In this document: positions 6,145 to 61,540 of the stretch, in pieces
How positions within the stretch are numbered: the stretch's first letter is position 1
How the letters are laid out: every line of letters starts with the position of its first letter
Assembly: GCF_007748115.1 (NCBI RefSeq)
Contig: NZ_CP036289.1
Location: 4,030,001-4,094,000 of the forward strand
DNA from: Bremerella volcania
Lineage (GTDB): Bacteria > Planctomycetota > Planctomycetia > Pirellulales > Pirellulaceae
Length of the DNA stretch: 64,000 bases
Direction: 5' to 3'
Made by a program: the position numbers and the translations under genes
The notes under the pieces: generated by a model
The model's input: the letters and a program-made list of their open reading frames with translations, nothing else
Database searches by the model: none
What the model was told of the DNA's origin: nothing

Positions 6145-6318
6145 GTCCCCTCGCCCCTCGCACGGAGAGGGTTAGGGTGAGGGGCGAAGCGGTTTTGGCT
6201 TCGCTGATCCTTTGGTGCTTAAATTCGGAAGGTGTTCTAGACCTTCGCTGCTGGTTGTGTTTTGTCTTGGCGGCATTAGCCCCTCACCCTAGCCCTCTCC
6301 CCTCAGGGGCGAGGGGAC
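6145..6318. repeat. paired-arm palindromic element, 174 bp
   Basis: The left arm (6145-6185) and right arm (6278-6318) are imperfect inverted copies beginning GTCCCCTCGCCCCT and ending GGTGAGGGGC, around a 92-bp centre without a gene. Arm sequence matches the ends of the DUF559 element at 45953-46414. Inferred to be a non-coding, MITE-like relative inserted between two operon genes. Confidence 0.8.
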
Positions 6319-7808: not shown

Positions 7809-7943
7809 GTCCCCTCGCCCCCGAGGGGAGAGGGTTAGGGTGAGGGGTTTTTCAATTAGTGCGTGACGAGATCAATCGACCGTGTACCGGGTTCGCCCCT
7901 CATCCGCCCTTCGGGCATCTTCTCCCCTGAGGGGAGAAGGGAC
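7809..7943. repeat. paired-arm palindromic element, 135 bp variant
   Basis: The left arm (7809-7848) is the GTCCCCTC...GGTGAGGGG type. The right arm (7894-7943) is a diverged form with CCCCTCATCCGCCC and a TTCTCCCCTGAGGGGAGAAG palindrome. The centre is about 45 bp. It lies between the ACP and the second CrtI-like gene. Confidence 0.7.
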
Positions 7944-11645: not shown

Positions 11646-11823
11646 ATCCCCTCTCCCTCGCAGGGAGAGGGCCAGGGTGAGGGTTTTCTGAGCGACGCTA
11701 ATTTAACATCGCCAGACTAAGTACCGAGCTAATCGAATGGAACCCTGACCGCGTTTCCAAAAGATGTCGGCGACAAGCCCCCTCACCCTAACCCTCTCCC
11801 CCGCAGACGGTGGAGAGGGGACT
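11646..11823. repeat. paired-arm palindromic element, 178 bp
   Basis: The left arm (11646-11683) reads ATCCCCTCTCCCTCGCAGGG... and the right arm (11778-11823) is its inverted relative with an ACGGTGGAGAGGGGAC end. The centre is about 94 bp with no gene. It fills most of the 282-bp gap between the zinc-ribbon gene and oleC; the right arm ends 4 nt from the oleC stop. Confidence 0.8.
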
Positions 11824-13514: not shown

Positions 13515-13553
13515 GTCCCCTCGCCCCTGAGGGTAGAAGGTTAGGGTGAGGGG
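13515..13553. repeat. palindromic intergenic repeat, single arm
   Basis: A solo arm GTCCCCTCGCCCCTGAGGG...GGTGAGGGG of the same family, 14 nt upstream of the oleC start. It adds an artificial in-frame N-terminal extension to the longest oleC frame. Confidence 0.75.
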
Positions 13554-18668: not shown

Positions 18669-18697
18669 GTCCCCTCTCCCCCAAGGGGCGAGGGGAC
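18669..18697. repeat. 29-bp palindromic repeat, short form
   Basis: GTCCCCTCTCCCC and GGGGCGAGGGGAC flank a short AA centre. It belongs to the same family as the longer arms, here without the GGTGAGGGG extension, and lies between cbiET and the PIG-L gene. Confidence 0.7.
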
Positions 18698-45952: not shown

Positions 45953-46414
45953 CAAATCTTCGTCCCCTCTCCCCCGAGGGGAGAGGGTTAGGGTGAGGGG
46001 TTATCTTCATCGGGCAACCCCAACAATCGCCGGATGGCAATGCTGACGCCTTCAAGATTCGTGAGCACCTCCTCGTTCTGAAAGCGAAGCACTTTGAATC
46101 CTTCCGCTTCAAGGTAACGCTGGCGTTCAGTATCTTTGTCTTGAGTCTTGTCGTGATATCCACCATCGATTTCGATCACGACCATCTTCTCCATGCAGGC
46201 GAAGTCCGCTATCCATGGACCGATGGAATGTTGCCGTCTGAACTTCAAGCCAGCGAGTTTACGATTTTGCAGAACCGACCAGATTAGTTGCTCTGGTTTG
46301 GTAGAAGTTTGGCGGAGAGATTTGCGGCGTTGAGAGTTGGTAGGTTGGTTGGGCTCCATTGAATAACCCCTCACCCTAACCCTCTCCCCTCGGGGGAGAG
46401 GGAACGAAGATTTG
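45953..46414. mobile_element. 462-bp TIR-flanked DUF559 element (candidate novel)
   Basis: 52-bp terminal inverted repeats (45953-46004 and 46363-46414) differ at a single base. The outer end starts CAAATCTTCG; the inner end is GGTGAGGGGTTAT. Between them is one gene (DUF559). The stop codon of that gene lies within the left TIR. No clear target-site duplication can be seen. The arms contain the palindrome CTCTCCCCCGAGGGGAGAG, and the same arm sequence occurs at four non-coding paired elements and several solo copies in the window. Inferred: an autonomous or once-autonomous element with MITE-like derivatives. Confidence 0.7.
45988..46359 (-). CDS. DUF559 (Vsr/PD-(D/E)XK-like) protein in TIR element
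   Basis: A 123-residue protein from ATG 46359. PEQLIWSVLQNRKLAGLKFRRQHSIGPWIADFACMEKMVVIEIDGGYHD and later RYLEAEGFKVLRFQNEEV match DUF559, whose fold resembles the Vsr mismatch endonuclease. Candidate active-site residues are the Glu of PEQ, the Asp of ADF, and Glu and Asp of IEIDGGYH. The last residues NPSP and the TAA stop are encoded by the flanking TIR. DUF559 genes are abundant and often repeat-flanked in planctomycetes and similar environmental genomes, but no transposition function is established. Nuclease activity is inferred. Confidence 0.82.
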   Translation of the reverse strand: MEPNQPTNSQRRKSLRQTSTKPEQLIWSVLQNRKLAGLKFRRQHSIGPWIADFACMEKMVVIEIDGGYHDKTQDKDTERQRYLEAEGFKVLRFQNEEVLTNLEGVSIAIRRLLGLPDEDNPSP

Positions 46415-61368: not shown

Positions 61369-61540
61369 GTCCCCTCTCCCTCGCAGGGAGAGGGCCAGGG
61401 TGAGGGTTTGTTGTGCGGTTATTGCCTTACATCGCTGGTCGAAAGTTCCGAATCCATCGCGAACATAGGCCACGCATGCGCTTTCAGGCCGGCGGGGATA
61501 ACCCCTCACCCTATCCCTCTCCCCTCGGGGGAGAGGGGAC
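61369..61540. repeat. paired-arm palindromic element, 172 bp
   Basis: The left arm (61369-61407) begins GTCCCCTCTCCCTCGCAGGG and the right arm (61500-61540) ends CGGGGGAGAGGGGAC. They are inverted relatives around a 92-bp centre. It lies between the convergent hypothetical gene and the helicase. Confidence 0.8.

Follow-up and report, generated by a model that had tools for sequence, protein, structure and literature searches.

A gene for a DUF559 nuclease in the planctomycete Bremerella volcania lies between two inverted copies of a published triplex motif (TM), and stand-alone genes of the same family in several bacterial phyla are enclosed in the same way. The DNA analysed here, referred to as the window, is a stretch of 64,000 nucleotides (contig NZ_CP036289.1, positions 4,030,001 to 4,094,000), and the element in question occupies 462 bp of it (window positions 45953-46414). 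From the comparisons described below, we consider it probable (roughly 0.57) that nuclease and repeats form a two-part system resembling RAYT/REPIN, in which a homing-endonuclease-like DUF559 protein would act as the mover of TMs.

The element consists of the DUF559 gene flanked by two 52-bp inverted arms, which an earlier note on this DNA, made from the letters alone, had described as near-perfect terminal repeats. Only one of the 52 bases differs between them, and lengthening the arms to 56 nt gives two differences. From the outside towards the gene, each arm is made up of a pyrimidine tract CCCTCTCCCC, a CGA loop, a purine tract GGGGAGAGGG, a TTA linker and a second purine tract GGGTGAGGGG, and the further palindrome mentioned in the note is present in both arms. 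The end of the protein was indeed found to be encoded by the repeat itself, as had been claimed: the plus-strand TTA that links the two purine tracts of the left arm reads as the stop codon on the minus strand, and the residues NPSP are encoded within the same arm. No target duplication was seen by eye around the element, and the flanking frames are those that we take to be dsbD and hisG. All features located in the window are collected in Table 1.

Table 1. TM-related features of the window (positions are those of the window)
Feature	Position	Strand	Basis
Gene-free inverted TM pair, 174 bp	6145..6318	.	Arm search and comparison with relatives
TM with diverged partner further on (L028)	7809..7847	+	Arm search
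Gene-free inverted TM pair, 177 bp	11646..11822	.	Arm search and comparison with relatives
Single TM with mismatches; arm at the same site in G002	13515..13553	+	Arm search
Lone outer hairpin GTCCCC..GGGGAC, no third strand, scar type	18669..18697	.	Sequence
Left arm, TM reading towards the gene	45953..46004	+	Sequence; fits the consensus of Holder 2015
Left-arm parts: Y 45965-45974, loop CGA, R 45978-45987, linker TTA 45988-45990, mirror strand R' 45991-46000			Sequence
DUF559 nuclease gene, 128 codons from GTG	45988..46374	-	PF04480 match, predicted structure
Right arm, opposite-strand copy of the motif with 1 mismatch in 52	46363..46414	-	Sequence
Gene-free inverted TM pair, 172 bp	61369..61540	.	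Arm search

The window protein matched PF04480 with an E-value of 8.8e-36 (122.5 bits against a cut-off of 20.6), and this was the only DUF559 match in the whole genome. In our judgement, an inner ATG (46357-46359) is a likelier start than the GTG. When the predicted structure (pLDDT 91.9) was used for a structure search, matches were obtained to 3hrl (NGO0050; E-value 9e-9), the homing endonuclease I-Bth0305I (1.5e-5) and Vsr (0.011), and a sequence-profile search gave 3hrl (2.8e-35) and I-Bth0305I, there named a mobile intron protein (1.4e-5). The scores for the Vsr models remained under their cut-offs (PF03852, 15.8 vs 27; TIGR00632, 22.3 vs 97.85). The Vsr-like nuclease fold that had been proposed for this protein is correct as far as a related fold is concerned, but the protein is nearer to I-Bth0305I and NGO0050 than to Vsr. 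Residues E15, D44, E55, D57, H61 and D68 were invariant in 24 sequences, a pattern that suits an EDxHD-type site. PADLOC returned weak matches only, the best being DpdF (9.6e-5) and the next a homing endonuclease model (5.7e-4). Among proteins of related fold, the VsrA of Caulobacter carries a DUF559 domain and is reported to be linked to DNA damage, with a proposed part in mismatch repair (PMC12907096).

By its sequence, the window repeat is a member of TM/TMECO, a motif that has already been named and published, and its arms fit the printed TMECO consensus, CCCTCNCCC N3-6 GGGNGAGGG N3 GGGNGAGGG. The paper that named it (Holder 2015, PMC4666352) reports 23 copies in Escherichia coli MG1655 and a G/C-rich TM class in more than 260 genomes, describes inverted pairs, polymorphism and hairpin-leaving deletions, and gives triplex folding as demonstrated in vitro, not in vivo. 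In the same source, TMs are tied to genome instability while the cause of their spread is left open, mobility activities are said never to have been found near them, and earlier studies are cited, including TM work by Hoyne and Maher and work that credits the motif with neither promoter nor terminator activity. The main text of that paper mentions neither DUF559 nor ycjD, Vsr or nuclease, and no title linking DUF559 to TMs or inverted repeats was found in the open-licence literature searched. The Rfam search gave three matches, every one under the gathering score.

The second purine tract of the motif mirrors the first, with A matched by A or T. This relationship was measured in hairpins beside DUF559 genes at 110 loci, of which 177 arms from 102 loci were usable. 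The third strand fully mirrored the hairpin in 99 of 133 asymmetric arms, compared with 24 +/- 3.6 when partners were shuffled, and a full direct-repeat match was present in 27 of the 133. The mirror fitted better than the direct match in 81 asymmetric arms and the direct match better in 4; on this count, the candidate explanation that the third strand is simply a direct repeat of the purine strand was rejected. All three strands covary: the hairpin variants GGGAGAAGG, GGGGGAAGG and GGGAGAGGA are accompanied by the altered third strands GGATGAGGG, GGATGGGGG and AGGTGAGGG. A G-quadruplex was also rejected as the common rule, since it fits arms such as GGGGAGAGGGTTAGGGTGAGGGG and fails for GGGAGAAGG..GGATGAGGG, a variant that the mirror rule does fit. 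Under the triad rules, a mirror purine pattern is that of an antiparallel purine-purine-pyrimidine triplex.

The distribution of TMs around DUF559 genes was analyzed with a strict detector, which calls a hairpin with its mirror strand at no more than 300 bp from a gene and facing it. Inward-facing TMs on both sides were found for 87 of 141 stand-alone DUF559 genes (the best relatives contributed 17 of 30, the named records 55 of 80 and the further relatives 15 of 31); 119 of the 141 had a TM on at least one side, and none was detected for the remaining 22. When positions were slid along the same loci, 3 of 626 were bracketed and 40 of 626 had a TM on any side. The check proposed in the earlier note, whether DUF559 genes elsewhere are flanked on either side by such repeats, thus came out in favour of the association. 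It should be noted that the 80 named records were chosen by protein alone (narrow alignment A2), the window protein alone having found no relative, and that the 141 do not include a partial DUF559 gene (L232), the tandem copies of L166 or any second copy situated in another locus. Proteobacteria, Nitrospira-type bacteria, Chloroflexi, Planctomycetota, Dadabacteria and Spirochaetota are among the titles of the 55 bracketed named records. In a control with DUF559 domains of large fused proteins, 0 of 15 were bracketed, both flanks being covered in 5 of the 15. The TM-bounded units were of rather uniform size, with a median length of 447 bp and a 10-90% range of 411-539 bp (87 units).

Several details qualify this picture. 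The detector-negative loci include L104, L108 and L143 of the Legionella group, in which the arm loop is longer than the detector allows. Orientation is not exclusive, since outward-facing TMs were also found on both sides at 23 of the 141 loci. With a separate inverted-repeat score, a value of at least 34 was reached in 60 of the 80 named loci, as compared with 6 of the 658 positions obtained by sliding. Randomly combined flanks from different loci also scored high, in 113 of 636 cases, because one motif is common to the loci. At L129, a DUF559 gene was observed amid inverted repeats of different sequence (ACTCCCCC..GGGGGAGT), and at L183, in a Neisseria record listed as a plasmid, a TM-like repeat lies close upstream of DUF559 and similar ones lie downstream, apparently in the same orientation.

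The association was also read in the reverse direction at 110 loci, where 68 TM pairs enclosed the focal gene and 34 were gene-free with arms less than 200 bp apart; this test is not a random one, because its loci were chosen for DUF559. Another eight TM pairs had arms 200-1500 bp apart, of which three hold a further DUF559 gene, two a methyltransferase-like frame and three nothing recognised. The DNA-methyltransferase-like frames (1.2-1.4 kb, read by eye) lie between inward TMs near a DUF559 unit at L089:221-1615 and L134:3073-4278.

At the level of whole genomes, 147 relatives were compared, and a strong DUF559 match (E <1e-19) was present in 16 of 25 arm-rich relatives, defined as having at least 10 window-type arms by a cut set after the counts had been seen, vs 25 of 122 others (p=3.5e-5, a value that ignores kinship). 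Leaving out the window's own genus gave 13 of 18 vs 24 of 120. When G104, whose arm matches are mostly a simple repeat, was left out, the corresponding fractions were 15 of 24 vs 26 of 123 (p=1.1e-4) for all remaining relatives and 12 of 17 vs 25 of 121 for those of other genera, kinship being ignored here as well. The arm-rich relatives without a DUF559 match include G001 with 82 arms, G002 with 77 and G005 with 46. As to whether the phylogeny of DUF559 follows the sequence of the repeats, a weak tracking was observed, the similarities of arm and protein being weakly correlated over 87 loci (Mantel r=0.17, p=0.0085).

Copies of the arms without the gene are numerous. In the window, 10 arm matches were found at no more than 3 mismatches vs 0 in 100 shuffles, and the whole genome (6.5 Mb) contains 152 arms at no more than 2 mismatches, the reversed-pattern control giving 0. 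The gene-free pairs and single arms of Table 1 confirm that the same arms recur on their own, as had been noted, and shorter pairs with arms 46-48 bp apart are present elsewhere in the genome. Of 30 arms inspected among the 152, 20 stood in inverted pairs, two of these 20 being the arms of the DUF559 element itself. The spacers of the shorter class had a mean identity of 81% vs 50% when shuffled (9 pairs), and those of the longer class 60% vs 49% (9 pairs). Because spacers are shared within a class, the gene-free pairs seem to multiply as units. The possibility that they are deletion derivatives of the gene was considered and rejected, the longer spacers being without similarity to the DUF559 gene. 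Thus, of the idea of an autonomous element with MITE-like derivatives, the many gene-free pairs with class-specific spacers were confirmed, but longer spacers unlike the gene speak against it, and the expression is a stronger claim than the evidence.

The gene-free elements vary between relatives. The 174-bp pair is present in G002, is represented by a short hairpin only in G001 and by a truncated arm in G005, and was not seen in G008. At the site of the 177-bp pair, the aligned sequence of G002 has a hairpin only, and the pair was not seen in G001, G005 and G008. The site of the lone outer hairpin has a longer arm in G008.

The history of the DUF559 unit itself appears to be different from a recent insertion. 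At the 3' end of dsbD, a DUF559 unit is found in G000, G008, G006 and G004, those of G006 and G004 being turned round relative to dsbD and having a stop codon inside. The same in-frame TAA (STK to ST-stop) and the same turned orientation occur in both L048 (G004) and L056 (G006), suggesting one common inactivated lineage or a downstream start. In G001, G002 and G005, the 3' end of dsbD has the outer hairpin or part thereof only; nothing recognisable was found downstream of hisG in G007, and G003 gave no hisG match. Since the same site is occupied in relatives, the window unit is, as judged from these alignments, old in the genus, inherited by descent and lost elsewhere with hairpins left behind. 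A residual hairpin is what slippage between arms would also give. The comparison of filled and empty sites proposed earlier therefore did reveal hairpin-only sites, but the window element is an old resident and no fresh insertion. Descent is likewise shown by same-site neighbours in Variovorax (L116, L138 and L142) and in Nitrospira-type bacteria (L120 and L135). Three DUF559 copies of one genome (L047, L170 and L171) lie at unrelated sites; their proteins are 73-80% alike, their mean arm identity is 0.84-0.87 and no flank match exceeds 27 bp (pairwise rows with L226 and L227 were excluded from the locus comparison). At L166 (G029:C5:328000-341000), several near-identical DUF559 genes stand in tandem, with many repeat spacings of ~1544 bp and 155 bp, which looks like local amplification.

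Gains and losses of TMs could be followed in E. coli, where a ycjD query matches 3365 of 5426 genomes and a 40-base TM matches 5093 of 5426. Between pstB and pstA, K-12 and one O157 strain differ from E2865 and IMT5155 by 92 bp, made up of an 84-bp part that contains one TM and of a repeated AACCGTGT, which gives an 8-bp direct repeat. Among 60 pst records drawn from across the ranking, the query is covered in full by 23, while 36 show the shorter form. The query matched in 76 of 119 outgroup genomes; 30 loci were fetched and 12 of them aligned, and the insert is absent from all 12 of these outgroup species. This insert reaches beyond the TM, and its ends are, by eye, not inverted repeats. Between fepB and entC, K-12 has a 186-bp insert that contains an inverted TM pair, and 2752 of 5426 genomes carry a form with a query coverage of at least 80%. 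The insert is missing in one O157 strain and two other E. coli strains as well as in 8 of 8 aligned outgroup loci (of 14 fetched), two of which carry unrelated inserts, and no clean duplication was found at the junction. By outgroup polarity, as read from these alignments, TM units were gained at both pst and fepB-entC. Target-site duplications, which the earlier note had also brought up, gave a divided result: 8 bp at pst, but none clean at fepB-entC and none by eye at the window element.

Losses are seen at yjdP-phnP, where several deletion alleles leave half-hairpins. The interval fabI-sapF was considered as an empty ycjD site and rejected, the alternative allele being an efflux operon. Strains of E. 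coli without ycjD at fabI keep further TM-query matches (H93 at 2 places, H94 at 5), and in MG1655 ycjD has its nearest listed TM at a distance of 168 bp on the downstream side and none close upstream. We also observed that the E. coli TMs at L206, L288 and L174 share an outside extension upstream of the TM (GCACAAT.CGTCCCC or GCACAAT.CGGTCCCC); in view of this common extension, the mobile unit may exceed the TM.

In RAYT/REPIN systems, a low-copy, vertically inherited enzyme gene lies within an inverted repeat pair, and many gene-free pairs occur elsewhere. The DUF559/TM arrangement is alike in having its enzyme gene in an inverted pair, in low copy number, in vertical inheritance and in the gene-free pairs at other sites, but the window enzyme belongs to the PD-(D/E)XK type rather than HUH/Y1 and the repeat is a triplex motif. 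The arrangement works like RAYT/REPIN and is no member of it, because the enzyme is not of the HUH/Y1 class. The suggested nuclease-driven analogue of the RAYT/REP system accordingly agrees with the data in its anatomy, in having few copies of the gene and in being inherited vertically, while the enzyme class differs. In the genus, both systems exist side by side with different repeats: Y1 (RAYT-type) genes at L061 and L154-L161 with REP-like pairs constitute a second repeat system in the same genomes. Of the 10 Y1 loci of the genus, L061 and L154-L160 are flanked by their own repeats (AATAGCCAGGGGCG..AGCCCCTGG with CAGCCCCAAAGGGGCG or near variants), L161 has a related pair and L066 none.

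The kinship of the window protein with I-Bth0305I in fold and sequence invites comparison with homing endonucleases, and the likeness may extend to DUF559 driving a mobile unit as such nucleases do. Unlike homing endonucleases, no intron or intein was seen; the gene stands between dsbD and hisG, and copies occur at unrelated sites. The consensus, the inverted pairs, the polymorphism and the hairpin-leaving deletions are common to our elements and to TM/TMECO as described in Holder 2015 (PMC4666352), where no mobility gene is given, whereas the TM-bounded units of ~450 bp studied here usually contain a nuclease gene.

Three other explanations of this arrangement appear to be improbable to different degrees. 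A classical MITE family moved by an unseen DDE transposase, with DUF559 captured and then inherited, would account for the 8-bp direct repeat at pst, but the same nuclease family is found in units of several phyla, a clean duplication is lacking at fepB-entC and, by eye, at the window element, and no transposase was recognised in the eight non-focal TM pairs (frames read by eye); we regard this explanation as improbable. Even less probable, and largely refuted for these data, is that the arms are REPs moved by an HUH transposase (RAYT, Y1_Tnp) with DUF559 as a passenger. A Y1_Tnp match was present in 25 of 25 arm-rich relatives vs 90 of 122 others, as this explanation would have it, but the presence of Y1 alone cannot separate the two systems, since all 25 arm-rich relatives have it. 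On the other hand, 0 of 22 Y1 genes were bracketed by TMs (3 of 25 loci were omitted as cut short), the window arm was absent from 25 of 25 Y1 loci, and in the genus 8 of the 10 Y1 loci are flanked by repeat pairs of another kind. Moreover, of the 35 genomes covered by 36 of the 80 DUF559 loci, some of them drafts, 12 gave no Y1 match, and in 6 of these 12 a loosely defined pattern with a weak control matched 47 to 194 arms, the reversed-pattern control being of little use for such counts because the arm is a near mirror repeat. The least probable of the three is a host gene with bidirectional terminators, the repeats merely standing at gene ends. The arms are indeed strong hairpins in intergenic DNA, but bracketing was rare at slid positions of the same loci (3 of 626), and a third strand with mirror covariation is superfluous for a terminator. 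The motif was also without promoter or terminator activity in work cited in Holder 2015 (PMC4666352).

The strongest rival to a mover is that DUF559 is a structure-specific repair nuclease, the cargo or caretaker of TMs that hinder replication, and that TMs spread passively by slippage, template switching and break repair. We consider this explanation possible but less likely than that of a mover. The link of Caulobacter VsrA to DNA damage and its proposed role in mismatch repair (PMC12907096) favour it, as do the slippage-type hairpins left by TM loss, the persistence of TMs in G001, G002 and G005 without DUF559, and the pst insertion, whose ends are not defined by the TM. Against it are the close inward bracketing of DUF559 in several phyla and the shorter-class pairs, which share a spacer and seem to multiply as units.

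If DUF559 is instead the mover of TMs, the following sequence of events may be envisaged. A TM in single-stranded form would fold into a hairpin with its third strand laid back on it, and the nuclease would recognise the motif when it is single-stranded or extruded, as during replication or repair. It would then cut or nick at the TM edge, and the TM-bounded segments would be copied into other breaks. The DUF559 gene would remain for long at one site and act in trans, the gene-free TM pairs being the units that multiply. In its fullest form, this would be a transposase-free mobile-repeat system, in which a nuclease reads a folded triplex that bounds both its own gene and the gene-free satellites, drives break-repair copying and is the mover of TMs in more than 260 genomes including E. 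coli K-12; we put this forward tentatively, as somewhat short of an even chance. There is a fair chance that such a mechanism is new.

Our data suggest that the nuclease may be the enzyme for a widespread bacterial repeat, that of E. coli included, whose spread has hitherto been unexplained. E. coli K-12 has both a DUF559 gene (ycjD) and the 23 TMs published in Holder 2015 (PMC4666352). The link between TMs and DUF559 gives a testable enzyme for the former and suggests what the latter, a domain of unknown function, may do, and DUF559/TM would represent a second, independent case of an enzyme with satellites beside RAYT/REPIN.
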